Below, piece after piece: positions 3,132-21,059 of a stretch of DNA of 21,059 nt. The translations under genes and the position numbers were made by a program. Origin of the DNA: a virus; the IMG/VR virus record IMGVR_UViG_3300042935_000452, positions 1 through 21,059 of that record; one strand, 5' to 3'. The notes beneath the pieces were generated by a model. The model saw nothing but the letters and a program-made list of their open reading frames with translations. It searched no databases and was not told the DNA's origin. Every line of letters begins with the position of its first letter. The stretch's first letter is position 1.

Positions 3132-3164
3132 GGGGTATGGCATTTTGCTGTGCCCCTTTTTTTT
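3132..3164 (+). terminator. Rho-independent terminator after the DUF932-like gene
   Basis: Bases 3132-3156 fold into an 11-bp hairpin (GGGG pairing with CCCC at the base, some G-T wobbles, TTT loop at 3143-3145). Eight T residues follow (3157-3164). It lies 36 bases after the preceding stop and ends the polymerase/DUF932 unit, so the endonuclease and pyrophosphohydrolase genes need a separate promoter or read-through. Confidence 0.9.
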
Positions 3165-3171
3165 AACTTTG
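3164..3171 (+). promoter_or_regulatory. Possible Bacteroidota-type -7 promoter box (TAACTTTG)
   Basis: TAACTTTG at 3164-3171 fits the Bacteroidota -7 consensus TAnnTTTG and sits immediately after the terminator, where a new promoter would be expected. A TTTG at 3144-3147 is 16 bases upstream, slightly closer than the usual -33 spacing. Transcription would start near 3178, about 50 bases before the endonuclease ATG. A single short match in AT-rich DNA is weak evidence. Confidence 0.35.
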
Positions 3172-3173
3172 TA

Positions 3174-3192
3174 TTATGAAAAAACAATTAAA
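3174..3192 (+). repeat. Left copy of a 19-base imperfect direct repeat flanking the homing endonuclease
   Basis: This 19-base sequence is matched at 17 of 19 positions by 3954-3972, exactly 780 bases downstream. Each copy contains an ATG at the same place. The right copy is the true start of the pyrophosphohydrolase gene, while the left copy starts a 20-codon open frame. This looks like a remnant or duplication of the target gene's 5' end produced when the endonuclease gene entered. The stretch is A-rich, so coincidence cannot be excluded. Confidence 0.5.
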
Positions 3193-3238
3193 AGCAGTGG
3201 AGAAGTTAAAAAATTATTGTATATTTGTTGCATGGTAA
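3176..3238 (+). pseudogene. 20-codon leader ORF resembling the start of the pyrophosphohydrolase gene
   Basis: ATG at 3176 opens a 20-residue frame that begins MKKQLKAVEKL and ends at TAA 3236-3238. The downstream pyrophosphohydrolase begins MLKQLNKVAEF: five of eleven positions are identical, and similarity stops abruptly after that. The stop overlaps the endonuclease ATG at 3232, which could couple translation of the two. The best reading is a leftover 5' fragment of the invaded gene that may now act as a leader peptide. It could also be a chance ORF. Confidence 0.4.
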
Positions 3239-3975: not shown

Positions 3976-4354
3976 AGTAGCAGAATTCCACACAGCATTT
4001 GGGCAAGAGAATGGTAAATGGCCACAACCACTTACTAAAGAAGAGTATGAACTCAGATACAGATTAATGGCTGAAGAGAACTATGAGTATCAGGAAGCAT
4101 GTGAAGTTAACTCATTAGTAGAGATTGCAGATGCTCTTGGTGACCAGTTATATATCTTATGTGGTACTATACTTAAACATGGTATGCAATATGTCATAGA
4201 GGATGTGTTTGATGAGATACATGCAAGTAACATGAGCAAACTTGGTGAAGATGGTAAACCCATTTTAAGAGATGACAACAAGATATTAAAAGGTCCTAGT
4301 TATTTTAGACCAGACTTAAACAAGTTTATTAAAATTGAAGGGGGAGAGTCTTAG
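3956..4354 (+). CDS. MazG/HisE-like nucleoside triphosphate pyrophosphohydrolase
   Basis: Predicted all-alpha NTP pyrophosphohydrolase of 132 residues, which would convert an NTP or dNTP to the monophosphate and pyrophosphate. The Mg-binding pattern is seen as E41-x-x-E44 followed by E56-x-x-D59 (EIAD), with D63 one turn further. A C-terminal section with ASNMSKLGEDGKP (90-102) and LKGPSYFRPDL (111-121) is typical of the phage and bacterial members of this superfamily. Such phage enzymes are thought to adjust nucleotide pools or alarmone levels; the actual substrate cannot be read from sequence. An in-frame TAA at 3950-3952 fixes the start at 3956, inside the end of the endonuclease gene. Translation is therefore probably coupled to it. 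The stop codon lies inside the terminator hairpin. Confidence 0.88.
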   Translation: MLKQLNKVAEFHTAFGQENGKWPQPLTKEEYELRYRLMAEENYEYQEACEVNSLVEIADALGDQLYILCGTILKHGMQYVIEDVFDEIHASNMSKLGEDGKPILRDDNKILKGPSYFRPDLNKFIKIEGGES

Positions 4355-4373
4355 GACTTTCCCCTTTTTTTTT
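4341..4373 (+). terminator. Rho-independent terminator between the convergent blocks
   Basis: A 10-bp hairpin (4341-4350 pairing with 4355-4364, TTAG loop, one G-T wobble) is followed by nine T residues (4365-4373). It includes the TAG stop of the pyrophosphohydrolase gene (4352-4354) and abuts the stop of the minus-strand giant gene (4372-4374). In the minus direction the hairpin is followed by CTTCAATTTT, a poor T-tract, so it should work mainly for plus-strand transcripts. Confidence 0.9.
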
Positions 4374-7300
4374 ATTTAAGGTTTTCAGCTTGCTCTGCTT
4401 TCTTAATTGCCCAAATAGGAGATACATTTTTACCTTTAATACCAAATACAGCTCCTATATCATTCCATACTTTAGCTGATCCTTTTTTCTGCCATCTATA
4501 TGGTCCAACATCTTGTTTATAAAATGCTTTTTCACTTCCAGTAAGAGCACCATATAAATCTGTTGCTAATTTATCATACAATTTTAAAGTTGGTCCTAAA
4601 GCTATAGTAGATGTACCTAAATAGTTAACGTAATCATCATAACCTAAACCTGATATAGGAATAAAAGTTTCATTCTCTCTTTTAACCATGATTAATTGAT
4701 ATAATAGTTGATTAGCCATGTATCCAAGATTACCATATTCTTCTTCTCTAGCTTTTAATTTATTGAATCTATCTTCATCACCCGGATCATAACCAAAAAT
4801 AATAGAAATAGCAGCATACATTAAATAGATATAAGCAAATTCAAAAATCATTTGTTTAATAGCAGCTACCTCATCAGGTTTCATTATACCTTTATATTTT
4901 TTAAAATCTCTAATTAAATTTATAAGTGCAGCTAGACCTGTAACGTAGTAACCTCTTGATGTAGTATCTAAATCCCAATCATAAACCTCTCCAAAGAAAT
5001 TATCTTTAGCTGTATCAAATTGGAATCTTCTCATAAACATACCAGTAGCATAGTTACGAGAATAAGTAAATAGTTTATATAATAAGTTTTTACTTAATGC
5101 TGGATTATCAATACTTGCTACATATCCATTTAATTTTTTATTAGTACCAGCTAATTTCCTACGCATGCCTTTAAATTCTTTTGCATTAGAAATAATTAAC
5201 TCTGTTCCAGGATCAATCTCTGCTAAGTTATCTACTTTATTATAAGCTTTTAAATCTTCTACAGTAGTGTTATATAGTTTAGCTAGATCTTCATAAGTTT
5301 CTCCATCTGAATAAGTATGTTTAACTTGGGACATTCCCCATTCAGGATTAATACCTGCCTTAAGTCTTAATAGTTTATCTGGGCCAATTTCAAATGCATC
5401 TGAATACTGAATCATTCTAGATTTACCATTAGGTAACTTTTGTTCTATCATTTGATAGTCTAACATACCGTATCCTAACTCTAGTGCTGCTTCATTTGCT
5501 ACCCATTTTCTAAAATCATATAAGAAAGTAGCATTAGAAGCATCTGAAAGAATAGTTCTTGTAAGAGATTTTGCAAAATCAGTTTCAGCTCTACCAGGAA
5601 TCAAATCAAATGCATCCATCATTTGCATATTGAAACTTTTAGCTCCCCTTTCATATACACCAGAAGTAGTTAATTCTGTCATAGCTTTTACAGCTTTGAT
5701 TTTACCAGAGATTAATGATCTAGTATTAATAAACTTACCACCAGATGCAAGAATCATTTTCTGAACAGTCATACCAAATCTGTTTTTTAATGCAGACTGT
5801 ATATCTAAAGCATAAAAAGATAAACTTGCAGCTCCCATTAACTTTTCACTAAGTTTAGTAATACCCTTAAAGTTTTCTTGAAATTCATCAGTTACTTGAC
5901 CGTAAACTTCTCTTTCAATTATCTCATTAAGTAGTTTTAATCTTCTATTTTCAGATTTAGCAATTAGTCTCATTGGACCTAATCCAGCATTTCTTAATGT
6001 AGAACTTGCTTGATTAATATTCTTTGCAGCATTTTTAGGATCAGATAATACATTTCTTAAAGCTAGAAGTAATGGCTCATCTTTTTTTAACTGTTTTGTT
6101 TTATTCATGGAGAACATATATTCACCTAGAGCTCTTAATACATCAGAAGAAGTTTCTGATACATCTAAAGCAAATAAACCACGTACAGGAACTCTTGATA
6201 TAGGATTACCATCCATATCTGTTGGTACAAATGCTGGATCAATCTCAGCATTAAAACCTTTATCTTGATCATCTGCTGCAGCTCTGAATGAAGCTCTAAT
6301 ATCTTTAAATGTACCTTTAATAGATTCTCCTTTTCTAGATATATCTCCAGACTGGCCTCTTTCTAGATTAGTTCTTTTTCTAAATCTTGGAAGATCTAAA
6401 TATAATTTTTCATACTCTCCAGAACCATCTTGAATATCTAAAAATTCTTTTTTAGTTTGCTCAAGTAACTTAAACACAGCATTGTTAGTACCTTTAAGTT
6501 TATAATACTGTTGATTAATATACTTCTGATCATAAGCTGAATTTGGTAAACTAGTATTATACTCCCTTGGTAAAAACTCTCCCTTATTATTTATATGTAC
6601 TCCTACTTGTAAATTTACTTTTTTAGTTTTGGGATCATAACCTGTTCTATACTGATCTTTAATTTTAGATATAGTATATCTAGAAACTGGAACACCAGAT
6701 ACTTGTAATTTTTCTTTAGTAGTAGGGTCAATTAATTCTGTTTTCTTATAATACTTTGGATTACTAGGTCTAGATACACTCCAAACTTTAGTTCTAAAGA
6801 ATTGCTTCTCATACTTCCTAGTTTCAGAATTGTAAACCATTTTTTCATAATGGTTTCTATCAAACCATTCAGAAAATCTTTCACTTTCTGCTTTAGCTAA
6901 GATAACATTATCTGAGTTAATCCACTCATCAGCATTTTCAAAGTTAATCTCTTCAGCATCAACTCCATTTATAGCAGTATTAAAAGCTTCAAAATAATAA
7001 TCTGTTGGGATTACATCTGTTAATTCAGATAAGCGTCTGTATAAGTTTCTAAGATTGGTCATCTCTTGAGTAGATAAACCAAACTGATTAGATTTATTTG
7101 ATAAATTATAATAATCTAAAAGCTGTTCTTCTGTTAAATCTCCAGTCTTATTTTTAGAAATATATCTTGTTTCATACCATTGCAACCTTGCAGCATCTTC
7201 TTTTGTTAATCCAGAAGCTTTATCAAATTGAGCTTGCAAGGATACTATTTCATCTTCTACAACTTTAACTTGATCAATCTGAACTCTATCTAGATTTAAT

Positions 7301-10248
7301 GCATTAGGTTCACCATCTTTATCTGTAACCATATTGACATAAGTCTTTCTTTGGTCATAAAGGTTAGCTAGTTTTTTTGATACATCAGAATTAGAAGCTT
7401 TCTCATTGATTCTTGCTATCTCATTAAAGATGGCAGTTATCTCTTTATAATAATCTTCTGTATATGCTACTCTAAAATTCTTGCGTAGATATCTATCCAT
7501 CTCTATCTGAAATCTTTCCGGAGTACCATCTGCAGTAATACCTCTAGAGGCAAGCCTTACATTAGCAAAGTTGTCTAAATCTCTTTGAACTCTATCATAA
7601 TTTATTTCAAAGTCATAAAATTTTCTAGACTCATTTCTATATTTGATTCTAAGTAAAACTTTTTTAAGTTCATCTCCTTGTTTATACTCCCCTGTTGTTG
7701 CTTCAATAGGATTATAAAGCTCTTCATAGTCCATTTTAGCTACACTAGCTTCATTATAATCAAATAGATCATCTAACTCTGTAAAGTCTCTCTTATTTTG
7801 AGTATTTAAAGTTTCTATGGCTTTCTTTCTTTCCTTATAAGCTTCCATTGAAACTTCCTTAGGCACTGTTAATACTTCTCCAGTATCGGGATGAATTACA
7901 GTGTTTTCTTTTTTAAACATACTAAGAACTTCATACACTTCAGGTGTAAAAGTTCTATTCATATATCTTTCATGAAAGTTCCAAAGAGCTTCAGTTGCAG
8001 CATCAATCTGAGCATTATCTTTAGCTTCTCTTGCTTTTTTAAGATCAAATTCTAATTGAGTCTTATCTGCTCTATAGTTTTTAAACTTATCTATAAAAGA
8101 GTAAACTTCTTTCTCAATAATTTCACCATTTCTTTCAAGCTTAATAGTATCTTTAAATAGTAGTAAATCTGCTAATTGAGTTGTATTATTAGGATTCCAA
8201 CCTACTTTTTCAAGTAATGGCAATAAAGTATCTGCCATTGTGTTAAGTTCTCTTTGTGATTCAATATTAGTATCCGCTCTTCTATCTTTCATAAAATTAA
8301 AGACAGCTCCTAAAATATCATCTATATTTCCTAATGGAACTAAATTAGAACCAATCTGTCCAATATCTTGAACATATCCTGTAAGAAATTCTTGAATAGT
8401 ATCTGGAGTAATATGTTTAATTACATAACTCTTAACTTCTTTAAGTAAGTACTTAACTCTAGGTGAAGCTTTAGGCAATAAACTATTTAACTCACTTTCT
8501 TTAAAGCTCTTCTTATTGTTTATATCAATTTGCTCAATTAGATTATTTAAAAATTTATTAATATCAGATTCTCTAAAACCATCAGCTTTAAGAATATTTG
8601 TAATAGCATCTTGAAAATTCTGGTTAAGACTTCTTTGCATATCTTTAGTAGCATCATTTATAAATTCTTTAGCAAATTCAAACATGACATCATTAATATT
8701 TTCCAAATCATCCTTAATAATCTGTCTTACAGAAAGTATTTTTTGAATGATGGGAGTATCTCTTGGTAACTTTAATTCTTTGATTGCTTCATCAAAGAAC
8801 TCAGCTTGACCAGCAAGTATGTCTCTATAGTGTATTACTTGTGTAATACCTTCAGGAGTTAAGTGTCTGTTAGTTTTAACTAAGTTATCTAATGCCTCTT
8901 GTATTCTTTGTGCATATACTTGAGACTCAGCTAAACTATTTACAAATGCAATTGAGCGTAGTCTTATATCTTCTTCATTCTCTTCAATAGCATTTATAAT
9001 TTCTTCTATTTCTTCAGCAGTTAAGTTCTTTTTTCTTACTGTATAGGGTGATAAAAAGGACTGTATATTTTTTAAAATATCCTCCCCTACTTTTCCTTCT
9101 AATAAGTTCTTTACTTCTTCAGGAGATTTTCTAAGTTTATCTAACTGGAAGTTAATGTTATCATAGTATCTATCAATAACATTCATTAGCTCTTTACTCT
9201 TAGCTTTTTCTAGATCCTGTATAAAGCTTTCAGCTTCTTTCTTAAACTCAGGTATTAAAGATAATTGATACTCTAAGTCTTCAATAACAAAATCTTCATC
9301 AAGTAACATCTTTACTAACTCATCTCTAGTAGTATTAGCATCTAGACTTTTAAGATTTACTTTATTAGAAAGTGCACGCAATACTTTTTTTATTGCTGCC
9401 ATTAAATTAGTAATAAATTTTTGGAATAAACTATCATCTTTAATAGTCTCATCAATTTGTTTATTAGCATCTAACTCTATAGCAGTAACAAGAGCTTCTT
9501 CTTTAAATCTTATTGTATTCTCTTGAAGCTCTGGATATCTATCTTTTACAATTTGTAGAGCTCTTTGACCAGTTGTGGTTAGACTAAGTTGATTAAATAG
9601 ATTATCAAACAACTTAGGATTTTGAAATTGAATTCCTTTTATTAAAGGGTGCGCATATTCATGGACTACAGAACCAGCATCAAATTTACCATCTACAAAA
9701 TATACTTTGTTGCCATAAAAGAATGATCCTATATTAGACTGATAAGGTGTAGTACTTTGTCCTAATAATTCTATAGCAGCTCCTTCTGTAATGATTTCAT
9801 AAGGAATATTAAATGCCTTATTATATTTTTCTCCTAATGCTTCAGCTATTTGCTTACTTCTTCTTCTTTCAATACCTTCTCTACTTAGAGCTACATCTAC
9901 GGGAGAAGTATTATCAAATAAGTAATCTTCAGTATAAGCTACTCCAGCACGCGCAGCATCTAGTTGCTGTGCTCTTCTTGCATCATTTTGATCTTGGACT
10001 AATTCTTGAGCCTCTATCTTTAGTTCATTTTCATAATAGATATCTACTAATGCCTCTGGGATAGTTATATCCATATCCATAAGATCATCTACAGTATATT
10101 GTGTAAACTTAACTACAGGGAATCCATAAGTTCTGTTTATACTAGTTGCAAGCACGCTAGCATTGTCTTGAGACATTCCTATTCCAGGACTAGCTGCTGC
10201 ATATACTTGATCAGTAAGTTTGTTCTTTATTTGAATTTTACAAGGCAT
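4372..10248 (-). CDS. Giant (1958 aa) putative virion protein: zincin-like protease motif, LysM domain, hydrophobic C-terminus
   Basis: Last gene of the giant-protein operon, 30 bases after the RNA polymerase gene. A metalloprotease signature H196-E-Y-A-H200 follows a short beta-rich stretch (YGNKVYFVDGKF), with E251 in an EEALVTAIE helix as the likely third zinc ligand; this matches zincin-like domains of phage polyproteins. Residues 300-1600 are mostly charged, helical sequence without a recognised domain. A LysM peptidoglycan-binding domain covers about 1644-1687 (start HTYSDGETYEDLAKLYNTT). Hydrophobic stretches lie near 1763-1780 and at 1800-1820 (MIFEFAYIYLMYAAISIIFG). The mix of protease, cell-wall binding and possible membrane segments suits a protein packaged in the virion and ejected with the DNA. 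Crass-like phages carry comparable giant genes beside their RNA polymerase. Specific function is inference. Confidence 0.9.
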   Translation of the reverse strand: MPCKIQIKNKLTDQVYAAASPGIGMSQDNASVLATSINRTYGFPVVKFTQYTVDDLMDMDITIPEALVDIYYENELKIEAQELVQDQNDARRAQQLDAARAGVAYTEDYLFDNTSPVDVALSREGIERRRSKQIAEALGEKYNKAFNIPYEIITEGAAIELLGQSTTPYQSNIGSFFYGNKVYFVDGKFDAGSVVHEYAHPLIKGIQFQNPKLFDNLFNQLSLTTTGQRALQIVKDRYPELQENTIRFKEEALVTAIELDANKQIDETIKDDSLFQKFITNLMAAIKKVLRALSNKVNLKSLDANTTRDELVKMLLDEDFVIEDLEYQLSLIPEFKKEAESFIQDLEKAKSKELMNVIDRYYDNINFQLDKLRKSPEEVKNLLEGKVGEDILKNIQSFLSPYTVRKKNLTAEEIEEIINAIEENEEDIRLRSIAFVNSLAESQVYAQRIQEALDNLVKTNRHLTPEGITQVIHYRDILAGQAEFFDEAIKELKLPRDTPIIQKILSVRQIIKDDLENINDVMFEFAKEFINDATKDMQRSLNQNFQDAITNILKADGFRESDINKFLNNLIEQIDINNKKSFKESELNSLLPKASPRVKYLLKEVKSYVIKHITPDTIQEFLTGYVQDIGQIGSNLVPLGNIDDILGAVFNFMKDRRADTNIESQRELNTMADTLLPLLEKVGWNPNNTTQLADLLLFKDTIKLERNGEIIEKEVYSFIDKFKNYRADKTQLEFDLKKAREAKDNAQIDAATEALWNFHERYMNRTFTPEVYEVLSMFKKENTVIHPDTGEVLTVPKEVSMEAYKERKKAIETLNTQNKRDFTELDDLFDYNEASVAKMDYEELYNPIEATTGEYKQGDELKKVLLRIKYRNESRKFYDFEINYDRVQRDLDNFANVRLASRGITADGTPERFQIEMDRYLRKNFRVAYTEDYYKEITAIFNEIARINEKASNSDVSKKLANLYDQRKTYVNMVTDKDGEPNALNLDRVQIDQVKVVEDEIVSLQAQFDKASGLTKEDAARLQWYETRYISKNKTGDLTEEQLLDYYNLSNKSNQFGLSTQEMTNLRNLYRRLSELTDVIPTDYYFEAFNTAINGVDAEEINFENADEWINSDNVILAKAESERFSEWFDRNHYEKMVYNSETRKYEKQFFRTKVWSVSRPSNPKYYKKTELIDPTTKEKLQVSGVPVSRYTISKIKDQYRTGYDPKTKKVNLQVGVHINNKGEFLPREYNTSLPNSAYDQKYINQQYYKLKGTNNAVFKLLEQTKKEFLDIQDGSGEYEKLYLDLPRFRKRTNLERGQSGDISRKGESIKGTFKDIRASFRAAADDQDKGFNAEIDPAFVPTDMDGNPISRVPVRGLFALDVSETSSDVLRALGEYMFSMNKTKQLKKDEPLLLALRNVLSDPKNAAKNINQASSTLRNAGLGPMRLIAKSENRRLKLLNEIIEREVYGQVTDEFQENFKGITKLSEKLMGAASLSFYALDIQSALKNRFGMTVQKMILASGGKFINTRSLISGKIKAVKAMTELTTSGVYERGAKSFNMQMMDAFDLIPGRAETDFAKSLTRTILSDASNATFLYDFRKWVANEAALELGYGMLDYQMIEQKLPNGKSRMIQYSDAFEIGPDKLLRLKAGINPEWGMSQVKHTYSDGETYEDLAKLYNTTVEDLKAYNKVDNLAEIDPGTELIISNAKEFKGMRRKLAGTNKKLNGYVASIDNPALSKNLLYKLFTYSRNYATGMFMRRFQFDTAKDNFFGEVYDWDLDTTSRGYYVTGLAALINLIRDFKKYKGIMKPDEVAAIKQMIFEFAYIYLMYAAISIIFGYDPGDEDRFNKLKAREEEYGNLGYMANQLLYQLIMVKRENETFIPISGLGYDDYVNYLGTSTIALGPTLKLYDKLATDLYGALTGSEKAFYKQDVGPYRWQKKGSAKVWNDIGAVFGIKGKNVSPIWAIKKAEQAENLK

Positions 10249-10278: not shown

Positions 10279-13200
10279 TTAGCTACAAGAGTCTATAGAT
10301 CTGTCTATTCCAGGTAATCCTTCTGGTGCATTTTGATCTGGTTTTTCTTCAAGAGTTTCTTCTTCTTTAACTTCACCTACTTGTTCTATGATAGGTTGAG
10401 TAACAACTACATCTTCATCTGGAGCAGATTCTTCTGTAATAGTTTGAGACTCTAATGGAGTATCTGTAGGATCATTAAAATCTATTGGAGAAACTACAAA
10501 GTCTTTAAACAATCTATTCTTAGGATCCATGATCTTATTATAGATGTTTCTTAGAGTTGCATTGTTAAGTTGTTTCTCTAAGAATATTTTTGAAGCAGAA
10601 TCCATTACATCTAAGAACTTATCATATGGTAAAGCCTCATTAAAACCAAATCTACTAAATCCAATTCCATTTTGATAAATAGAAACTAAAGGCAATAGAC
10701 CAAACATCTCACTAATTCTGTCATTATCAGCAATTGATTGTACTTTTTTAACTGTAGGATCTCCTAAATCTTTAATGTTCTCATAATAGATCTCAGCAAG
10801 CTGTGCATCTTTTAACATTCTAGAATCATTCAATGAGATTATTTTCTCACCTGTTTTAAGTGAAGGTTTAGTAAGTTGATTTAATACAGGATACTTATCC
10901 TTAAGCTCTGAAAACTCAGCAATCATACTCATTAATTGATCTGAGTAAGAGTAATTAACTGTTTTCATTAAAGCTTCTCTATTAAATGCAAAGATTAAAG
11001 CTCTTTGATTTAAAAATGCCTCATATGTTTGTTGATTTAGAGTATTCTCATCTTGTATTGAGTTAGCTAAAACACCTCTTAGTTTTCTAAATGTTTTATT
11101 TGTTGTAGCTTTATCAAAAGGAAAAGTAGATCTTTGATACTCTCTTTCCACTACATACTTAAAGAAGCTTGATTCAGTTGGAAAAGCATTCTCTACTGCT
11201 CTAAATGGTCTTAAACCACGGGCTCTATAACTATCAGCTGATTGAGAGTCTGCAGAAAATAACTTTTCATTATAATCTTTACTGATTCTAGCCTCATCAA
11301 CATAAATTACATTGTCAATTACTTCTGCACCATTAGCAATACCCTTTTTATTTTTAACTTGCATTTCTTTATATGCCGTAGGTACATTTACTATGTTACC
11401 ATTAATGTCAGTAAAGTTTGACATATAATTTTGGAATACATAATTTACTACAGAGTTTTTATAGTCTGAAATAAATGCTCTTGTACCATCCGCTCCTGGA
11501 CCGTATTTTTTTATAATGTCTCCTGCTCTTCTTTCTAGTAATAATAGTACATAACTAGTAACCTTTTCTGAATTTCTTAATGGAAACAAAGGTTTTATTA
11601 GTTCTGTAACAATTTTATTATCAAAGAATGTCCCAAGAATAGATTCTTCAATCATTTTTCTTACAAGCTCTGGGTCTACTTTAGATAAGTCCTTAAGTTC
11701 TTCTAATGATATACCTCTTCGCATTCCCTCTTCTAATGTTTTAGAAGACTTAGTATCTGGATTAGAAAGTCTTTTTAATGTTTGTAAACCCTTAATTTGT
11801 TTTTCAACTTCAATAAAGTGCATAAACATACCTAAAGCAGCACCTCTATACTTTGTAGATTTTGGATTTAAGATTACTCTTTTCATAAGATCCAAATCAA
11901 ACTCTTTATTTTTATTTAAAAAAGATTGAGAGTAGTTAAAAGCATTTTGATAATACTTTTTATTACTTACTGAAGGTTTAATAAATATTGGTGCCTTATC
12001 TTTTGCATTAATTCTTACATCTAAGAACTCATCATTAAACTTATTATCAGTTTTAGTTCTTTCAATTAATTGTAACTTAGTCATTGGTATATTAAAATAT
12101 TCCATTTCTTGTTTATCATCATTAAACTTTCCTGTTTTTACAGAAAAAACAGTGTTGTCTCTAAATGAAGAAAGTTGATCTTCTATAACACTTGGTAACT
12201 GACTATAGATAACATCTGTTGCTGCTTTATATTGAGCAAATGCTTTATTATCTAATACTTTACCAGCTACATTAGCATAAGAACTTTTATATAGTCTTTG
12301 GTTCTTTGCATACTCTCTTACTAAAGGATTAGATACAAACATAATTGCATCTTCTTTTGGAACACCAGCCTTAAGCAAATATAAAAGTGTAGGAGCAACT
12401 TCCAAGTTACCTTGAATAAAGAAGATCCAAGCATCTTTTTCAACATCCACTAAACCATTCATCATTTGTGAGAACAATTCTGAAATAGAATCACCATCTA
12501 CTGATTCAGTATGTGAAAGAGAAATTCTACCTTGTTTGGTTTTTCTATGTGGTAAATAAAGATTTGTATTATAGTTTATATCTGTTTCTACATACTTCTT
12601 TGTAACATCATCATAGTAAGACCACTTATATGTTTTAGGCATTGCTGCTCCCAATGAATTAAAAATTGGGTGTAAAGCATTTTCAATAGCTGTAATACCT
12701 AATACAGTCTTACCAGTTAGATTTACTTCATGTTTATGTAAATTGTATCCTGTTTCAAGAATTCTTGTAGGACTTATTAGTTTAGTTACTTTACCATCTG
12801 TATTCTTAGTATAGTAATCTTCACCTAGTTTGTTCTTAAATCTATCATAATCAGAAACAAAATCTTGTAATCTATCTGCAATGTCTTTAAGAAGGTATGT
12901 AGCATTTGGTCTTACCAAGTTAGCATAGTTATCAGGTAAAGCAAGGATATCATTAATGCTACTGATTAATCTATTCTCAAGAGCAGCCTTTTGAGTTTTA
13001 ATTGTTTGAGTTACTCTTTCTGGATTAGACTTATTTCTTTTTACAAAGTTCTGAAACTGTTCTTCTGATAAGCCTGACTCTATAAATTTACCTCTGTTAT
13101 CTAGATTAGGCATAAATGTAATCAACTTATCAACGTCAAAGTCAGATCCTGATTTAGCAACAATCTCAGTTGGAGGAATAATAATGTTTCCTGCAGATGG

Positions 13201-16200
13201 ATCTAAGAACTCATAGACTTCCATAAACTCCATAGAGTTAAGACCCTGTACTGGAATTCTTACAGCGGATAGTCTGATAACATTTCTATTTTCTTTAAGC
13301 CAATCTTCATCTTTAATTAGTTGATTAAGCTTAGCAAGACTAGCTTTTTGATTTAAAACCTTTTTACCATCAATTGTATCATAGATTGCAACATCAGATC
13401 TTTTTAATAAATTAAAGAAATCACCTTGTAGAGCAATAGCAACTTTCATAGCAGAAGTGCCATCTGCAGTTTGATCATAGAAAGGAAGATTATTTGTACC
13501 TAAGAATTTTCTTACTTCTTCATCTGTAGCTTTTTCAAAAGTAGGTTGTTGCCACATACCATTTGTCATAGTACTAGCTACCTGAACTAATGGTTCACCT
13601 TTTACTTTTTGTTTAATAAATCTTTTCTCTATAAGACTAACTAATATTTTTTCTATATCATCAGCTCTTAAATGTAAAGACAAATCAGTCTTTAAAGTAG
13701 TATCCGGATTTTGACCAACAAAGTCAATATGATGTTCTGGTAAGTTTCTTCTACCTAATTCTCTTTGGATAAGATCTAAGAAATTTGTAAGATTACCAAT
13801 GTATTTACCATCAACTTCTTCATAACCAATCTCATTAAGTAACTCAAACTTCAATAATTTGGTATACTCATCAACAGTTTGCTCATATTTCTTTACTGTA
13901 GCCGCATTATTAGGATTAATGATTTTACCTTCACGGTACATAGCTCCTAAAATAAGTTTTCTTAACTGTGTAGAGAAGATAGACTTATTTTTAAATGCAG
14001 TATTTACATTGGTTACATTTTTAAGATAGTCAACATAGATAGTATTTTCTGTAAACTTAATGTCTTTATTAAGAGTCTTCATTTCAGAATCTGAATAGAT
14101 AGGATCTGCTGCTGCTTTACCCTTGCTATCTTTAGCTGAAGTTACAGAACCTACTTTAGAACCCGATTGGAATGTAACATACTGAATGTTCTTTTCCATC
14201 ATTTGCTCATGTAGAGACTGTAAATCTGATCCAGCAATCATTGATGGAATCAATGGAGCTAATGCAAACTTATGCATTGCATTTACAGGCATACCTGTAT
14301 TTGCTAAGTGACCAAAATTCTGTACTTTATATACTGGGAACATTTCAAGAATATCTTTTGGAGAAACAAATTCTCCTCTAGTTATTTTTTGAAATAATTG
14401 ATCTTGCTCATATGACCAAGAATTCTCTAAATTTTTAAGAACTCTGTATGTATCAAAAGTAATCCAACCTTGACCGTCCCCTTCAGTCATTTTTTTATAA
14501 GCATTAATATCATTATTAACTCTATACTCTACAGCTTCTTTAAGTTTAGCGGGATCTTTTATAGATTCTTTAAGCTTATTAGTATAATCTTCAGTTAAAG
14601 CTTTTGTAATTATTGGAAGATATACAGAACTTCTTTCTACATCTTGTATAATAGCAGTATTCAATGTACCATTATAAGATATAGTATTGTATCCTTTTTG
14701 TGCAGCATAAGATGTATCACGTAAATAACCATTAACCAAGTTCTGAGCAGCTAAGTCTGTTCTAAAGGTTCTACCTGTAGAAGTAAGACCAGTATTTCTT
14801 TTATGCATTTCTTCTTTAACATGGTTATATTGAGCCATATCTCCATACATAAGATTGATTGTTTCAAAATTATGTATCCAAGAATTATATGTGTAAGCTT
14901 TACTTAACAACTTTTCTTCTTCTGTTTTTGATAAGTTAAAAACTTTAAGTGAACTTGATAAGTCTGGACTTATATAATTAGTTTGCTGTAATTGATTATA
15001 GTTCTCCTCTGATAACTCATTAAAATAATCAGTTATATCAGTTTTAATTTTTTCTGCTAATCCAGATTTATCAGCTTTAATAAATGATATGAAGTCAAAG
15101 TATTCTTTGTTTGCAATAGCTTGATCAATTGCATCATAGATTGCAGTTTTAGTAGAAGGCCTTAATGCATTATCAAATGCAGTAAACACTTCTCCGGCCA
15201 TTTTGCCATTAGCAGTGATATTATTATAACCGGCATAGGTTTCAAACTCAGTTTGATTTTGTTTGAATTTATAAATTCTATTTGCTTCAGTTGCAATGTA
15301 AGGAACAATATGTGTTCTTAATGCATATGATTCTGCAGTACCATTTCCAAACATATCTATATCAACATAGAGTCTTGGATTACTGTCTAGCTTATTTGGT
15401 CCTCCAATAATTCCTCCATTAAGTCTCAAACCAAAAGCAGAACTTTTAGAAGCGTGTCTAATAAATTCTTGTATACCTCCTTTAAGCATAGAGTTAGTCT
15501 CCTGTAGAAACTTACTAAATACATCTAAGGAAGTAGTATTTAATCCTTCTTTGATAGCATTGTCTTCATCAATTATCTGTTGTGTACCGGAAGACATAAA
15601 TAATTCTAACTCCTTACCATCTCTCTTAACAAACTCTGGATCATTAAAGTCAAAGATTGTTTTTAAGATTGTAGAATTATTAGTAAATGTATTGATAGCA
15701 GGATTTAGATAACTCATATACTTAAGAGCATCTGAAGTCCATAGATCAGCTAGTTTTTCAGCTTTATTAATAGCATATGCAATTTTACTTGCCGTACTCT
15801 TTTCAATTAACTCAAATACAGTATTACCTTCAGCATTAAGTACTCCAAAATTAGAAGTATCTAAACCATAACGTGCTTGTAAATCAGCTAGTTTTCTAAG
15901 AACATATTTTTGAGTCTCTGCTTTATCTGAGATAATTCCTTCAGGTATTTCAGTTCTTAAGTAATAAATAGGATTCTTTTTGAATTCTTTTATAAAACCT
16001 AATTGTTTTGGAGTAGCTGCATTACTATTTTCTAGTTCAGCAAGTTGTTTTACTGTATTAAAAATATAAGGAAGCCCATACTCTTCTATAGATTTTTGAT
16101 TCTTACCAAGTTCTTTCTTAATAACCGTTAAATTATCAAGATAAATACCTACTCTTCCTGCAAATTCAAAGTACCTGGCGGAGTCTAAGTTTCCATTCTT

Positions 16201-19200
16201 ATCAGAGAACTCATCTATTAAAGCTGCTATGTTAAGCATAGGAACATTATCTTCAGTTCCTCTTACAATAAATGGATTACTAGTATCTGCTTTAAACTTA
16301 TATTCAAAAGATTTAAGAATATCTACACTCTCTAATGAAGCTTGTGTAATTTGTGTTATACCATTTGTATATATGGTACTTTGTAATAAAGGTACTCTTG
16401 GTTTACTAAAAGTTTGCCAGAAAGCTGTAGTAGCTTTAGCCTCATATAAATCATTACTTTTAGTAGGATCTGCTAATTTAAAGTTTACTAATTGCTCAAA
16501 CTCCGGATGAATAGGAATAGCAGCTTTTAGTAATTCATACTGTATTGCAGGGTCTTGTTCTCCACGGATAGTTCTTACTGTATTATTCCAAGTACTTCTA
16601 AAATCTACAAGTTCTGGAAACCCTAATTGATTTAATATAACTTTACCAGACCTGTCTACTTTAAATAGACTCTTTAATATATAAACTACTTCTTTATCTG
16701 CTAATTCAAGTAATGATCTATCTCCAATTTTTGTATCTCCAAATCTCTCACTTGCCTCTACATTTTGAGGATCTGTAGCATCATCAGTTTCATCTTTTAT
16801 TTCTTCATCTTCATTTGCTTCTTTGAGCTCATCTATTGTCACAAACTTCTCTCTTAACAGATTATAGTCTGAATTTTCAATATGGTATTGAATCATACCA
16901 TTAGATTGATTACCCCAATTATCTAATGCACTAGTAATAATTCTAATGTTATTCTCTATCTTTTGTTTTTCTAAGAAGTTTTTTGGGATGTCCTCAAGCT
17001 TTTCAAGATCTTCTTGTAACTCAATTCTTCTTGTATCAAGTTGATCAAAGATATAAGAATACATTGCATTCCTATTTCTAGGATCTTCTAATAACTTAGT
17101 AGTAGCAGATTTATTTTGCCCAAGTTCAGCAGTATCTTGTTTTCTTTCTGAATAAAGTTCATCACCTAACTTAGAAATAATAGCATCCATTGAATTTTTT
17201 AAAACTGTTGCGTCTTGTCTGTTCAATACTTGTTCTTCAGCATTAGCTAAACTTTGAACTCCAGAGTTTCTATTAAGCAAATCAAACATTACATTGTCAA
17301 TGCTTGGTGTATACTGATTAAGATTCTTATTAAAATAAAGATTCTCATAGTATTCCTGAACTTTTTTAATATTAGTCACAGTACTAACTGACCCTAAACC
17401 AATTAACTCTCTTAAGAAATTAAGGATTCTTCTGAATATACTATTTTTTACAGGACTATCTTTAGCTGCTTTAGGGTTCTTAGCATAAGTTCTGAACTCT
17501 TCTGCAAGCATTTCTTCTATTTCAAAGAATGATAAATTCTTTTTAGTACCTAACTTTTTTTGTACTTCTTTATAAAGAGCTGTTTTTTCTTGTGGAGTAA
17601 GAAATAACTGACTGAAACCATGCCAAGCTTCATGATAGACATCTACCATAGAACCTTTGTTTCCAATCTGGAGCATACCTAACTTACCATTTAAGACAGC
17701 ACCATAAGAAATAAATCTTGCAAATGCATCTGAGTTAGCAATAGCTACGCCTTGTTCAAAATCTAAGTATTTAAATAAATCACTTTTTTTCCACCAAGCA
17801 TCTGCAACCTTAATTTGTTCAGGAGTAGCATCATATTGTAAGTGACCATCTCTTAAAAAGAATTTACCCGCTAAACCATCTTTAGGATTAGCAGTACCTT
17901 TTGTATTAGTAGATTCTTCAATCTTCTCTTCAAGTGTAGTACTTCTTTGTTTTTTTAGTTGCTTATAGTAATCATTTAAATCACTTTCTCCAATAGCATA
18001 ATTTGTTTCCATTACACGGCCAAGAACCTTTCCTTCTGCATTCTTTACTTGAATAACATTAGGAATATACATGTCATCTGTTTCCTCAGTAATTACTTGT
18101 AATGAAACAGTGGTTCCTATTACTAATTCAGCAGCAGATTTAAATAACTTTTTATCTAAAGAAACTACTAATGGTTCCCCCGTTGCAGGAGAAGTAATTG
18201 AAAATATTCCAAACTCATTTCCTGTACCAGAAACATTTACTTTTCCTTGTTGAGAGATTGTAGTGTCTACAGCTTCTGTTTGACCTTTTACATAATCAAC
18301 AAGAATATTCTTTTGTTTTCTTGTTGGTGAAGGTTCTACAGATACCGGATTCTTTTTAGCTTTTTCTACAGCTTTAATAAACTCAGTTGGTACTCTGAAG
18401 CTGATATAAGAGTTAAACTTTTTAGGATCACTTGATGATGAAAAATCAATTGTAGTTCTTGGTAATGTTTTTAATAACTCAATGTAACTACTAAACTCTT
18501 CATTCAATGTGTTTGTTTCTAAATTATAGTCTTGATAACCATTTTTAGAAAGAGCTGTTGAATCATAGTTCATCTTAGCTGAGAAGTACTTTCCAGTTGT
18601 ACCGGAAGCATTTGTTAATGTATCTATGATTAACTGTTTAGCTTCAGGAGTATTTAAATTTGTAATAGATTCAAACTTAGAATACTTTTCAGCATAAGTA
18701 GTAGGAGAATAGCGGAATATTAACTCATCTGTTGCTGGTGAATATTCTACAGAATGTTTTCTTGTACTAAATGAAGCATTCTTTGAAAAGAATTGTAGAT
18801 AGAAATTATATTTTTCTTGATTAGAAATATTAGAATTACTAAATACAGCAGCAACTTTTTGAATTACATCCTCTGTAGCATTTGGTCTATCAATTTTATA
18901 TTCAGTATCCTCTATACTGATTACAGCATCTCCTTTAGCAAATACTCCTCTAGGAGTTCTTACAATATCTATAGTTCTAAATACTGAATCATTACCAAAA
19001 GGAAACTCATTAAGATTAGATAGATTAACTATTTGTTTACTTTGTTTTGGAGAAACTCCTGCACTAATTCCTGTCATTGAAGCTAATGCAACATTACCAT
19101 CTAAGACTGATTTCTTATACTCATGTAGTGATTTAAAATCTGCTTGTTGATTTTGAGTTGCTTCTTCTACTGTAATACCAGTTGCTTTAGATATTTCTGT

Positions 19201-20139
19201 TGGTGATGCAATTTGATTAGAGTAACCATAGATATTTACATCTTTAAATTTACCATCTTCTACAATCACATTTCTTAAGAATTGATACACAACTCTTCCT
19301 TGTTCTGGAGTCTCTACAATGTTACCTTCATTGTCAAAATATAATAGGTTACCTTGCTCATCTGAAATAGCCATTAAGATAATCTCAGTAGCTTGAATAA
19401 CATTTTTATTTTTCTTGTTTGAGTTTCTAAAGAATGTAGATACATTTTTAATTCTTGTAGAATACTTATCAAGCACCTCAACTGGAGCTGAGGATAAAAC
19501 TATAGGTTTAAGATAAAGCTTTTTATCTTGGTACTCTACAGTATCCATAGCATTATCAAGACTAGGGTTTGCTTCAGAAATTTTTCCAAGAGCAGTATAT
19601 ATAAACTCTTTAGTCTCATCTGCTATTTCTTGATATCCTTCTTCTTTAGCTTTAGGATCAATTGCTTCAAACTCCTGATAACTTGTATTGAAAATTGAGA
19701 AAGGTTTTAATGATAAAGGTCTAGCTTCTGCAGGTTTATCATCTGTTTGCACTGGATTAAAAGCTTCATTAGCTTTTTGATTAACCAAATCTTTTTTAGT
19801 ATTAGTAGATTTAGTAGGAGCAAATCTTTTCATTACAGCTTCAATACCTGTAGTCTCATTACCAAATTCTTTTATAATTTTTCTAATAGAGTTAAGATCA
19901 ACATCTAATTCAAATAGACTTCCACGGTTTGCAGCTGCAGATACCATTTTAGGTATTTGTTGTACAAATTTAGATGCTGTATCTGGATTAGACTTTTTAC
20001 TAATCTTATCAAATACACTTGACATATAGGTATTAATATCAAAAGGAACATCATTATTCAATGCATCCATCATGTTACCATATACATTACTATATAGATT
20101 CTTAATCTGGTCTGGGCTTAGTGCACAATTAATTTTCAT
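10279..20139 (-). CDS. Giant (3286 aa) single-chain virion-type RNA polymerase with embedded zincin-like protease domain
   Basis: Predicted DNA-dependent RNA polymerase of the crAss-like type, in which beta- and beta'-like double-psi barrels lie on one chain (prototype: phi14:2 gp66, a virion enzyme that transcribes early genes). The key evidence is D2333-F-D-V-D2337-K in the context SGSDFDVDKLITF, preceded by RIPVQGLNSMEF (from 2294). This order copies the cellular beta' pattern of an RxP stretch leading into NADFDGDxM. An upstream YVTFQSGSKVGS segment (K1995) is a candidate for the beta-like barrel lysine motif. A metalloprotease signature H836-E-A-W-H840, with E876 or E880 as third ligand, lies in the N-terminal third between low-complexity linkers. 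A very acidic linker spans about 1095-1125. The C-terminal 60 residues are acidic and Pro-rich, like a flexible tail. The N-terminal region (1-730) is not recognised. The gene starts 4 bases after the preceding stop. Confidence 0.88.
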   Translation of the reverse strand: MKINCALSPDQIKNLYSNVYGNMMDALNNDVPFDINTYMSSVFDKISKKSNPDTASKFVQQIPKMVSAAANRGSLFELDVDLNSIRKIIKEFGNETTGIEAVMKRFAPTKSTNTKKDLVNQKANEAFNPVQTDDKPAEARPLSLKPFSIFNTSYQEFEAIDPKAKEEGYQEIADETKEFIYTALGKISEANPSLDNAMDTVEYQDKKLYLKPIVLSSAPVEVLDKYSTRIKNVSTFFRNSNKKNKNVIQATEIILMAISDEQGNLLYFDNEGNIVETPEQGRVVYQFLRNVIVEDGKFKDVNIYGYSNQIASPTEISKATGITVEEATQNQQADFKSLHEYKKSVLDGNVALASMTGISAGVSPKQSKQIVNLSNLNEFPFGNDSVFRTIDIVRTPRGVFAKGDAVISIEDTEYKIDRPNATEDVIQKVAAVFSNSNISNQEKYNFYLQFFSKNASFSTRKHSVEYSPATDELIFRYSPTTYAEKYSKFESITNLNTPEAKQLIIDTLTNASGTTGKYFSAKMNYDSTALSKNGYQDYNLETNTLNEEFSSYIELLKTLPRTTIDFSSSSDPKKFNSYISFRVPTEFIKAVEKAKKNPVSVEPSPTRKQKNILVDYVKGQTEAVDTTISQQGKVNVSGTGNEFGIFSITSPATGEPLVVSLDKKLFKSAAELVIGTTVSLQVITEETDDMYIPNVIQVKNAEGKVLGRVMETNYAIGESDLNDYYKQLKKQRSTTLEEKIEESTNTKGTANPKDGLAGKFFLRDGHLQYDATPEQIKVADAWWKKSDLFKYLDFEQGVAIANSDAFARFISYGAVLNGKLGMLQIGNKGSMVDVYHEAWHGFSQLFLTPQEKTALYKEVQKKLGTKKNLSFFEIEEMLAEEFRTYAKNPKAAKDSPVKNSIFRRILNFLRELIGLGSVSTVTNIKKVQEYYENLYFNKNLNQYTPSIDNVMFDLLNRNSGVQSLANAEEQVLNRQDATVLKNSMDAIISKLGDELYSERKQDTAELGQNKSATTKLLEDPRNRNAMYSYIFDQLDTRRIELQEDLEKLEDIPKNFLEKQKIENNIRIITSALDNWGNQSNGMIQYHIENSDYNLLREKFVTIDELKEANEDEEIKDETDDATDPQNVEASERFGDTKIGDRSLLELADKEVVYILKSLFKVDRSGKVILNQLGFPELVDFRSTWNNTVRTIRGEQDPAIQYELLKAAIPIHPEFEQLVNFKLADPTKSNDLYEAKATTAFWQTFSKPRVPLLQSTIYTNGITQITQASLESVDILKSFEYKFKADTSNPFIVRGTEDNVPMLNIAALIDEFSDKNGNLDSARYFEFAGRVGIYLDNLTVIKKELGKNQKSIEEYGLPYIFNTVKQLAELENSNAATPKQLGFIKEFKKNPIYYLRTEIPEGIISDKAETQKYVLRKLADLQARYGLDTSNFGVLNAEGNTVFELIEKSTASKIAYAINKAEKLADLWTSDALKYMSYLNPAINTFTNNSTILKTIFDFNDPEFVKRDGKELELFMSSGTQQIIDEDNAIKEGLNTTSLDVFSKFLQETNSMLKGGIQEFIRHASKSSAFGLRLNGGIIGGPNKLDSNPRLYVDIDMFGNGTAESYALRTHIVPYIATEANRIYKFKQNQTEFETYAGYNNITANGKMAGEVFTAFDNALRPSTKTAIYDAIDQAIANKEYFDFISFIKADKSGLAEKIKTDITDYFNELSEENYNQLQQTNYISPDLSSSLKVFNLSKTEEEKLLSKAYTYNSWIHNFETINLMYGDMAQYNHVKEEMHKRNTGLTSTGRTFRTDLAAQNLVNGYLRDTSYAAQKGYNTISYNGTLNTAIIQDVERSSVYLPIITKALTEDYTNKLKESIKDPAKLKEAVEYRVNNDINAYKKMTEGDGQGWITFDTYRVLKNLENSWSYEQDQLFQKITRGEFVSPKDILEMFPVYKVQNFGHLANTGMPVNAMHKFALAPLIPSMIAGSDLQSLHEQMMEKNIQYVTFQSGSKVGSVTSAKDSKGKAAADPIYSDSEMKTLNKDIKFTENTIYVDYLKNVTNVNTAFKNKSIFSTQLRKLILGAMYREGKIINPNNAATVKKYEQTVDEYTKLLKFELLNEIGYEEVDGKYIGNLTNFLDLIQRELGRRNLPEHHIDFVGQNPDTTLKTDLSLHLRADDIEKILVSLIEKRFIKQKVKGEPLVQVASTMTNGMWQQPTFEKATDEEVRKFLGTNNLPFYDQTADGTSAMKVAIALQGDFFNLLKRSDVAIYDTIDGKKVLNQKASLAKLNQLIKDEDWLKENRNVIRLSAVRIPVQGLNSMEFMEVYEFLDPSAGNIIIPPTEIVAKSGSDFDVDKLITFMPNLDNRGKFIESGLSEEQFQNFVKRNKSNPERVTQTIKTQKAALENRLISSINDILALPDNYANLVRPNATYLLKDIADRLQDFVSDYDRFKNKLGEDYYTKNTDGKVTKLISPTRILETGYNLHKHEVNLTGKTVLGITAIENALHPIFNSLGAAMPKTYKWSYYDDVTKKYVETDINYNTNLYLPHRKTKQGRISLSHTESVDGDSISELFSQMMNGLVDVEKDAWIFFIQGNLEVAPTLLYLLKAGVPKEDAIMFVSNPLVREYAKNQRLYKSSYANVAGKVLDNKAFAQYKAATDVIYSQLPSVIEDQLSSFRDNTVFSVKTGKFNDDKQEMEYFNIPMTKLQLIERTKTDNKFNDEFLDVRINAKDKAPIFIKPSVSNKKYYQNAFNYSQSFLNKNKEFDLDLMKRVILNPKSTKYRGAALGMFMHFIEVEKQIKGLQTLKRLSNPDTKSSKTLEEGMRRGISLEELKDLSKVDPELVRKMIEESILGTFFDNKIVTELIKPLFPLRNSEKVTSYVLLLLERRAGDIIKKYGPGADGTRAFISDYKNSVVNYVFQNYMSNFTDINGNIVNVPTAYKEMQVKNKKGIANGAEVIDNVIYVDEARISKDYNEKLFSADSQSADSYRARGLRPFRAVENAFPTESSFFKYVVEREYQRSTFPFDKATTNKTFRKLRGVLANSIQDENTLNQQTYEAFLNQRALIFAFNREALMKTVNYSYSDQLMSMIAEFSELKDKYPVLNQLTKPSLKTGEKIISLNDSRMLKDAQLAEIYYENIKDLGDPTVKKVQSIADNDRISEMFGLLPLVSIYQNGIGFSRFGFNEALPYDKFLDVMDSASKIFLEKQLNNATLRNIYNKIMDPKNRLFKDFVVSPIDFNDPTDTPLESQTITEESAPDEDVVVTQPIIEQVGEVKEEETLEEKPDQNAPEGLPGIDRSIDSCS

Positions 20140-20143: not shown

Positions 20144-21059
20144 CTAACAATCTAGATCATTTAATAAGTCTTCATCTAAGTCTGTCAAAGATTTCTTTTC
20201 TGCTGCTTTTTCAATTGCAGGAAGAGCGTTTTCTTCATCAGCTACAAATAAATCTACAGAGTCTAATGTTTCAACTACATTAGCTTTAGATTCTTTATCT
20301 ATTTTAGTTGCGGTTTTTTCTTTTGCTTCCATTACTGCTTCTTTTTCACTAAATAAATTATTTAACTCATCTCTCTTAAGTTTCAAAGTTGCTTTTTTAC
20401 CAAGAGCTTTAACTGTAACAGTTCCTTCTTTTTTATTAGTAGAAGTAATTACTACAGTATCATCTTCTTCTGCAAAAATTTCAGTTTGATTTTTATCAGT
20501 AAATATAAGACTTTTAGCAACAAGCTGAGTACCTTTTACCATGTTATCTGGAGAAATTTTAGGTTCAGTTTCTTCTGCTAAAGTAAGATCTTTATTATCT
20601 AACAACTCAGTAATTCTATCTATATCCTCAGGCACAATTTTACCTTGTGCAATATCTAGATTAACTTGTATTTTTAATTTAAGTAATTGAGGTTCAGTAG
20701 TTATTGAATTTAACTTGTCTTCAATACTTTTTAAAGTTACTCTTTCTGCAACAGGAGCATAAGCCATACCTGGATCAACAGCTTGACCTTCTGCAGATAT
20801 AGTAGGAGACACTTGATCTGTACTACTTTCAACATTGCTCGGCATCTCCACTGTCTCTTGAATTTCTGAAGCTTGTTTAACTGCAGGTACTATTGCTTCA
20901 GCTTGATCTTTAACTAAGTTTTTATCTAATGTGATTAAGAACTCAGTATTTAAAAGATTCTCTCTAGTAGGAGTTGTAGCTGAAGTAATTTTACCAGACT
21001 TATCTGCTACAATTTCAATAGGCATTAATGCAATCTTAGGAGATACTCCTACCATTCTT
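20144..21059 (-). CDS. C-terminal part of an unidentified operon protein (5' end outside window)
   Basis: At least 303 residues are visible. The frame is still open at the window edge: the codon before the first visible Met is AGA, so that Met need not be the start. Residues 60-105 (counted from that Met) are a Pro/Ser/Glu-rich linker. About 107-155 is a helical pair (LKSIEDKLNSITTEPQLLKL start). About 173-235 alternates short beta strands (GTQLVAKSLIFTD, TVVITS, GTVTVKALGKKATLKLK) like a small SH3-type barrel. The tail from 262 is acidic and ends TDLDEDLLNDLDC. No catalytic motif is visible. Stop to next ATG is 4 bases (TATT), implying translational coupling with the RNA polymerase gene and probable co-packaging, though that is inference. 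It may be the end of another large protein of the same cluster. Confidence 0.8.
   Translation of the reverse strand, partial: RMVGVSPKIALMPIEIVADKSGKITSATTPTRENLLNTEFLITLDKNLVKDQAEAIVPAVKQASEIQETVEMPSNVESSTDQVSPTISAEGQAVDPGMAYAPVAERVTLKSIEDKLNSITTEPQLLKLKIQVNLDIAQGKIVPEDIDRITELLDNKDLTLAEETEPKISPDNMVKGTQLVAKSLIFTDKNQTEIFAEEDDTVVITSTNKKEGTVTVKALGKKATLKLKRDELNNLFSEKEAVMEAKEKTATKIDKESKANVVETLDSVDLFVADEENALPAIEKAAEKKSLTDLDEDLLNDLDC

Follow-up and report, generated by a model that had tools for sequence, protein, structure and literature searches.

A crAss-like two-barrel RNA polymerase with a putative zincin-like domain in its N-terminal extension

Introduction

The best-described relative of the polymerase considered here is gp66 of the crAss-like phage phi14:2, whose structure has been solved (PDB entry 6VR4) and which lies in a gp67-66-65 block annotated from mass spectrometry in the phage record. 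The giant size of crAss-like RNA polymerases (RNAPs), their variable protein boundaries and the chain carrying DxDxD have already been published (PMC7886860, PMC10136315), with lengths of up to ~6000 amino acids (aa) given in a review (PMC10136315). In crAss001, gp47, gp49 and gp50 were found in virions, and the structure paper proposes that the cargo proteins exit in a partly unfolded state and fold again inside the host (PMC10172136). A different giant polymerase is known from phage N4. A structure preprint places an HExxH motif in the C1 domain of the N4 virion RNAP (PMC12633501), and Iyer and colleagues found that N4-like virion RNAPs nearly always carry a fused zincin-like domain, the metal site of which consists of HExxH and a downstream glutamate and for which they suggest a role in processing multidomain polypeptides (PMC5512222). 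Here we describe P0001, a gene for a 3286-residue chain in the 21,059-base virus record IMGVR_UViG_3300042935_000452, which was analyzed in its entirety (the window) and is most likely a genome fragment. P0001 is almost certainly a crAss-like RNAP of the phi14:2 gp66 type, and ahead of its polymerase core lies what we read as a putative zincin-like metallopeptidase domain, Zn1. As a polymerase, P0001 calls for no new explanation and adds an uncultivated lineage to a known family; Zn1 in the extra front end is less expected, an architectural feature worth a test at the bench.

P0001 resembles phi14:2 gp66 in holding both catalytic barrels in one chain and in its DFD[I/V]DK and RIP motifs, and the window follows phi14:2 in the order and polarity of the giant neighboring genes, with gp67-gp66-gp65 standing opposite an oppositely directed block. 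It differs in length (3286 versus 2180 aa), in sequence (~22% identity where aligned) and in Zn1, which was not detected in gp66 or gp67. Both the phi14:2 and the crAss001 enzymes, which are known to be packaged in virions and to transcribe early genes, are accompanied by other giant virion proteins; in the window, P0002 is the downstream equivalent of one of them, and the incomplete P0007 occupies, upstream, the position of another. The N4 virion RNAP would share with P0001 a giant injected chain with an HExxH zincin-like domain (PMC12633501, PMC5512222), yet it is a T7-type polymerase (PMC5512222) with the zincin toward its C-terminal side, whereas P0001 has two barrels and Zn1 on the N-terminal side. 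Because the polymerase folds are unrelated, zincin fusion in the crAss-like and N4 enzymes would be convergent. A literature search conducted mostly by title returned no report of zincin-like domains in crAss-like RNAPs; figures lay outside its scope and may name them.

Identity of the Polymerase

When residues 1214-3180 of P0001 were compared by tblastn with 50,697 phage records, 91 records matched. The 40 matches listed came mostly from phages named or classified as crAss-like and included entries annotated as RNAP catalytic subunit or putative RNA polymerase. The match to phi14:2 gp66 itself reached 1e-17 at 21.9% identity, and the direct alignment of the two proteins covers only about residues 1749-2619. 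Two alignments were built around the core. A1 holds the window sequence, the collinear ortholog from a relative (contig L001) and 11 phages chosen via tblastn matches, phi14:2 gp66 being one of them; A2 holds the window sequence and 72 relatives (73 sequences) with gp66 left out. Against the PDB, the gp66-free A2 profile gave a single significant chain, 6VR4, at 5.7e-114. The A1 profile matched the same entry at 1e-254 and was set aside as circular, since A1 contains gp66.

The three aspartates in SGSDFDVDKLITF are residues 2333, 2335 and 2337, and RIPVQGLNSMEF begins at R2294, 39 residues ahead of D2333. All 13 core sequences of A1 have the Asp triad, R2294 and P2296. In A2, the residues invariant in 73/73 sequences are R1781, K1938, K1957, K1995, Q2058, G2181, R2294, I2295, P2296 and F2311, followed by G2331, S2332, D2333, F2334, D2335, D2337, K2338, N2389, A2484 and D2565. 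The A2 contigs were chosen by the pattern [SF]DFD[IV]DK, itself taken from A1. DFDxDK is therefore invariant in A2 by the way the set was built, and only the residues outside it count as independent evidence. The pattern scan found at least 599 stretches, of which 447 were confirmed and the best 80 retained; eight of these core sequences were then removed as duplicate, too short or over-long, along with L016, a copy of L001. Judged from the two alignments, the conserved motif of P0001 is not a chance occurrence. For the invariant lysines K1938 and K1957 we assume the role known from QDE-1 and beta. The reading frame was assessed against the L001 ortholog, with which P0001 shares 76.7% identity over 3281 codons. 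Differences at the three codon positions number 591/381/1127, with 774 synonymous and 764 amino-acid-changing codons, and the frame is therefore coding and under selection. The plus strand of the same interval contains many stops.

The AlphaFold2 model of the core (residues 1735-2645) has a mean predicted local distance difference test score (pLDDT) of 89.4 and a predicted template modeling score of 0.87. By Foldseek, this model matched 6VR4 at 1.1e-30 and QDE-1 at 2.9e-4. With VIA-align 2 it superposed on residues 849-1698 of 6VR4 with a Z of 22.2 (3.0 A over 734 aa), followed by QDE-1 (Z 15.4-15.8) and maize RDR2 (15.6; maize and Arabidopsis RDR2 together span 9.6-15.6). QDE-1 and the plant RDR2 enzymes share the two-barrel fold with P0001 but are eukaryotic enzymes of RNA interference at 11-14% identity. 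The phage neighbors scored lower (P74 gp62, Z 9.7; P32 gp64, 9.4; P23-45 gp96, 8.1), as did the nonvirion RNAP chains of phiKZ and AR9 (7.1-7.4). Matches to cellular beta' were weak (Z 6.3-6.7), and most of these alignments span model residue ~442 to 823-870, a range that includes the DxDxD loop. In the core model the Asp triad lies between helix 591-600 and strand 604-608, and sequence alignment places it on gp66 D1361/1363/1365. Judged by the superposition on 6VR4, P0001 is a chain with two double-psi barrels.

Several results weigh against this identification. At E <= 1, a phmmer search of the PDB with the whole chain came back empty, and PHROGs, Pfam and NCBIfam yielded 0 families each for P0001; the assignment is therefore based on BLAST, profiles and fold. 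A search for phrog_2, which we take to be a terminase family, found no match in the records of seven relatives, the coverage of crAss terminases by phrog_2 being unchecked. Membership in the Crassvirales thus gains no support from virion genes through this search, and the window is a 21-kb fragment.

A preliminary description made from the letters of the window had anticipated much of this. It had named a two-barrel polymerase of the phi14:2 gp66 family and drawn a parallel with cellular beta', both borne out by the searches above, and it had placed the Asp triad and the R2294 motif exactly where the translation has them. It had also proposed a profile search and a structure prediction with comparison; in both, for the latter with residues 1735-2645 modeled and the triad placed by alignment, 6VR4 came first. 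Its open reading frame (ORF) was right in coordinates and length and lacked the strand, which is minus. Its term "single-chain" holds for the two catalytic barrels and only for them, given the giant companion proteins in phi14:2 and crAss001.

Zn1, the Front-End Domain of P0001

Zn1 was recognized with a profile that includes near-identical contig L002 (Table 1), and a single Zn1 sequence reached cr118 gp14 by phmmer at 6.6e-15. H836, E837 and E876 are invariant in all 63 aligned Zn1 sequences, from which two L015 fragments and identical copies had been removed and in which near-duplicates remain (window/L002; L073/L078). P0001 displays the gluzincin pattern of HExxH plus distal Glu at H836, E837, H840 and E876, and our reading of Zn1 is that of a putative zincin-like metallopeptidase domain. 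The name zincin rests on the invariant motif and not on fold, because the Zn1 model is weak, helical and without a zincin match. Zn1 has counterparts in cr118_1 gp14, cr4_1 gp26, cr50_1 gp59, cr52_1 gp34 and cr108_1 gp54, as well as in cr112_1 gp6, cr128_1 gp51 and one protein from Dulem virus 41. In a survey of 79 loci (L017-L095), a Zn1-type domain was present in 60 of the 60 frames with at least 1600 residues before DxDxD, a cutoff chosen after the first survey, and stood 1303-1776 residues ahead of the motif. This set keeps the duplicate contigs L017/L018, L026/L027, L029/L039 and L088/L090 and counts L076 and L079, the upstream domains of which fit the Zn2 profile better. Ten ORFs truncated at the 5' end and without Zn1 fall outside the 60.

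A number of observations speak against reading Zn1 as a metallopeptidase domain of this kind. Nine complete RNAP ORFs in the survey, all shorter frames, have no Zn1. None was found in gp65-gp68 of phi14:2, the block of the enzyme with the solved structure, or in the proteins examined from crAss002, cr106 and DAC15, which for cr106 and DAC15 did not extend to their third giant protein. The search profile was built from 10 seeds that all carry HExxH, which favors motif-bearing matches. The AlphaFold2 model of Zn1 has a pLDDT of 68 and is all-helical, and zincins contain beta sheet (PMC5512222). Neither Foldseek nor VIA-align 2 matched the model to any PDB chain or zincin, an absence that excludes nothing. 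In the comparison of the Zn1 profile with the PDB, seven of the eight rows were Pro-Pro endopeptidase/Zmp1 (E 0.43-0.58); these rows are nonsignificant and cover only the second helix (EExxAE), not HExxH. Finally, the HExxE variants of Zn1 and the EExxH variants of its counterpart Zn2 suggest that some copies may be inactive.

Searches with single members were equally diffuse. Pfam matches were scattered over 35 mostly unrelated families, the best being Prim-pol 4 at 0.00069, and Tox-MPTase2 appeared at 0.0022 in one of 56 members among unrelated matches of similar or better score. PHROG matches were few and mixed, with a best value of 9.1e-5 to "virion structural protein" (4/56 members).

P0002 and a Second Zincin-Like Domain

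The protein encoded downstream of P0001, P0002, matched annotated crAss RNA-polymerase subunits at best at 1e-4 by tblastn and cr128 gp52 at 4.5e-8 by blastp. It carries Zn2, a candidate relative of Zn1. Across 53 aligned Zn2 sequences, the glutamate in the second motif position, the histidine in the last and a glutamate 55 residues further on are invariant; at the first position, 29 sequences have H and 24 have E (EExxH). Profile-profile comparison of Zn1 with Zn2 gave 95.7% (E 8.5e-9) and another comparison 96-98%, versus 0.2-0.4% in controls in which the Zn1 and Zn2 profiles were compared with the RNAP core or with the N-terminal region. The window's own Zn2 matches the Zn1 profile weakly (0.0099). 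The Zn2 set, which includes the upstream domain of L076, was built up over four rounds of iteration, a procedure in which drift is possible. No PDB chain was significant with the Zn2 profile. Pfam DUF4932, a domain of unknown function, was matched by 13 of 48 Zn2 sequences (best 1.2e-5) and may be a related zincin-like family. Two loci, L071 and L084, have two Zn2-type domains in the downstream region, a possible further duplication. P0002 also contains a LysM domain, which in a presumed injected protein could bind peptidoglycan during DNA entry.

Fused and Split Arrangements

A frame of 5491 codons from Chitinophaga sp. YR573 contains Zn1 (HEAFE), the RNAP core (DFDIDK at 3059) and Zn2 (EEAMH), in the order of the window genes. 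Zn1 and Zn2 are tied to the polymerase because this one frame holds all three. The frame sits at ~3,727-3,743 kb of a 4.8-Mb bacterial contig (L121-L122) after several large co-directional genes, and the locus is possibly an integrated crAss-like relative. Zn1 and RNAP are also fully fused in the Suoliviridae members cr118 and cr50. There, cr118_1 gp14 (4946 aa) and cr50_1 gp59 (4774 aa) resemble P0001 in having a Zn1-type HExxH in the RNAP chain, 1475 and 1489 aa before DFDID, respectively, and differ in being longer, with ~1600-1700 residues before Zn1. The protein downstream in cr118 has EExxH where P0002 has HExxH. The Steigviridae members cr112_1 (gp4/5/6) and cr128_1 (gp51-53) share with the window an RNAP, a Zn2-type next protein and Zn1 (HEAFH). 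Unlike in the window, their Zn1 ends a separate protein on the opposite strand.

In cr112, cr128 and Dulem41 a gene boundary directly follows Zn1, so that a giant protein distinct from the RNAP chain ends in Zn1 at its C-terminus; in L073, L075, L078, L082, L087 and L092 a boundary lies ~180-200 aa before Zn1. Because Zn1 ends a separate giant protein in three split relatives, P0001 resembles a fusion. From its sequence, it looks like a gp66-type chain to which such an end piece, made up of Zn1 and the ~770 residues preceding it, has been attached. Between the upstream protein of L001 and cr112 gp6, the match reaches only 0.015 over the whole sequence and 5.2e-4 in the best stretch.

Proposed Role and Alternative Explanations

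By analogy with phi14:2 and crAss001, P0001 would be packed in the capsid with the neighboring giant proteins, be threaded through the tail partly unfolded, refold in the host and transcribe early genes with Mg2+ held by D2333, D2335 and D2337. The neighboring giant genes of the window would accordingly be expected to encode virion proteins, as we infer from the same systems. A same-fold polymerase need not travel in the virion, however. P0001 might be made after infection and transcribe later genes, as P23-45 gp64 does. Phage two-barrel polymerases include nonvirion types (PMC10770324), P32 gp64 is among the structural neighbors of the P0001 core (Z 9.4), and the packaging of P0001 is itself argued by analogy. 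Set against this, the much closer structural match, 6VR4 (Z 22.2), is a virion enzyme, P0001 belongs to a block of co-directional giant genes resembling phi14:2 gp67-66-65, and the crAss001 counterparts gp47/49/50 were found in virions (PMC10172136). We consider a nonvirion P0001 very improbable.

The part to be played by Zn1 and Zn2 is far less settled. Our proposal, a tentative one, is that they travel with the polymerase as metallopeptidases and that, at about the time of ejection, they would cleave either the giant cargo chains or a target in the host; the partial-unfolding proposal for crAss001 cargo is compatible with either target. More generally, crAss-like virion RNAPs may be polyvalent cargo machines in which Zn1, at the junction of a neighboring giant protein with the RNAP chain, and Zn2, in the downstream protein, flank the polymerase and process cargo or a host factor on a plan convergent with that of N4, a generalization that we regard as possible though somewhat doubtful. 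If real, the protease-like pair would suggest, in a form open to testing, how chains 3000-5000 residues long get out of a capsid through a narrow tail and turn into working polymerase, and would be a case of convergence between two unrelated phage polymerase types, the two-barrel crAss-like and the T7-type N4. The domains could also be derived from zincins and yet be structural, holding giant proteins together or binding metal without cutting. Changes in the motif itself (HExxE in 8/63 Zn1; EExxH in 24/53 Zn2), the lack of Zn1 in nine complete RNAP ORFs and the helical model without a zincin match fit such a role, which is a serious possibility, a little short of an even call. Yet the general-base Glu and the distal Glu are invariant in 63/63 Zn1 and 53/53 Zn2 sequences, even though identity to the window falls to 13% (Zn1) and 9% (Zn2), and a structural role alone has no obvious need for such conservation. 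A further reading, which appears unlikely, is that Zn1 and Zn2 are no zincins but belong to an unrelated helical domain in which HExxH is chance-like. In its favor are the all-helical model, the scattered Pfam matches and the failure of sequence and fold searches to reach any known zincin significantly. Against it, the invariant H-E-x-x-H/E and the distal E together make up the gluzincin pattern, seven of the eight weak PDB profile rows belong to one zincin family aligned at EExxAE, a Tox-MPTase2 match exists for one member, and the helical model is poor just ahead of HExxH, where model residues 83-89 have a pLDDT below 50.

Size and Placement among Relatives

P0001 exceeds gp66 by 1106 aa. 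Because DxDxD starts at residue 2333 in P0001 and at 1361 in gp66, ~970 of the extra residues are N-terminal; the preliminary description had put the excess at about 1100 residues, mostly N-terminal, and was correct in both. Size as a novelty was considered and rejected, as 32 of the 52 complete frames of relatives are at least 3286 aa long. These stop-to-stop frames, which include some duplicate contigs, range from 2242 to 4907 aa with a median of 3657. The L001 ortholog has 3696 aa, with extra stretches of ~120 aa near residue 624 and ~280 aa near the C-terminus. Residues 1-790 of P0001 have no convincing relative outside the close clade, the best values being 0.012 (cr128 gp51) and 0.024 (cr50 gp59).

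In a FastTree phylogeny of 84 core sequences and 802 columns, the window pairs with L001 (support 1.0) within a 72-member group of contig-derived sequences (support 1.0). All 11 references, drawn from Steigviridae, Suoliviridae, Intestiviridae and Dulem virus 41, fall outside it. The sample was gathered by similarity to the window, with other groups left out, so the tree shows only distance from those 11 references. In cr108_1 (L005) the RNAP gene is split at DFDxD. There, gp54 ends at the D2333 equivalent and gp53 resumes at 2334 after a gap of ~290 bases, which suggests that the catalytic motif is interrupted by an inserted intron. Two-barrel frames with GSDFDIDK also occur in genome contigs assigned to Spirosoma oryzae (L116) and to an Aenigmatarchaeota metagenome-assembled genome (L108). 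The L108 frame also holds a Zn2-type domain; contigs of metagenome-assembled genomes may be phage contamination.

Layout of the Window

The seven genes of the window form two converging blocks, a plus-strand block and a minus-strand block of giant genes (Table 1). Four bases separate the P0007 stop from the following ATG. Terminator-like patterns such as the one between the blocks occur at 10 sites in the window versus 5.7 expected in shuffles.

Table 1. Features of the window and of the proteins it encodes
Feature	Position	Strand	Details
Plus-strand block		+	B-family DNA polymerase, DUF932-type protein, GIY-YIG homing endonuclease, MazG-like pyrophosphohydrolase; PHROG/Pfam matches
Minus-strand giant block		-	P0007 (end of upstream gene), P0001 (3286 aa), P0002 (1958 aa)
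Terminator-like hairpin between converging blocks	4337..4368	. (listed on +)	pattern match only
P0002, 1958 aa, putative downstream virion-type RNAP-associated protein	4372..10248	-	position of phi14:2 gp65
LysM domain, P0002 residues 1649-1686	5191..5304	-	PF01476, 3.9e-6, 27.1 bits vs cutoff 20.9
Zn2, putative second zincin-like domain, P0002 residues 146-317	9298..9813	-	HEYAH at 196; profile relation to Zn1
P0001, 3286-aa catalytic chain of crAss-like (two-barrel) RNAP	10279..20139	-	ORF, ATG to stop
Approximate whole-gp66 equivalent, residues ~973-3152	10684..17223	-	inferred from DxDxD offset
RNAP core, residues 1735-2645, both double-psi barrels	12205..14937	-	AlphaFold2 model and 6VR4 superposition
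DFDVD, residues 2333-2337, predicted metal-binding loop of double-psi barrel A (DPBB-A)	13129..13143	-	aligns to gp66 D1361/1363/1365
RIP, residues 2294-2296	13252..13260	-	invariant 73/73; 39 residues before first Asp
K1957, invariant lysine	14269..14271	-	strand N-terminal to DPBB-A in model, likely DPBB-B; 73/73
K1938, invariant lysine	14326..14328	-	strand N-terminal to DPBB-A in model, likely DPBB-B; 73/73
Zn1, zincin-like (putative metallopeptidase) domain, residues 774-949	17293..17820	-	profile match 4.6e-50
E876, predicted third metal ligand	17512..17514	-	40 residues past first His of motif; 63/63
HEAWH, residues 836-840	17620..17634	-	H and E 63/63; last position H 55/63, E 8/63
P0007, C-terminal 304 aa of next giant gene upstream	20144..21058	-	counterpart at least 2003 aa in relative L001

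phi14:2 gp65, which holds the position of P0002, gave a weak Zn2-type match (2.3e-5). Contig L002 derives from the same virus as the window (99.87% over 16,221 bases). The GIY-YIG/NUMOD3 homing endonuclease (window 3145-3975) sits between the DUF932 gene and the MazG-like gene, and the start of its frame differs in L002, with 289 aa from ATG versus 276 aa from TTG.

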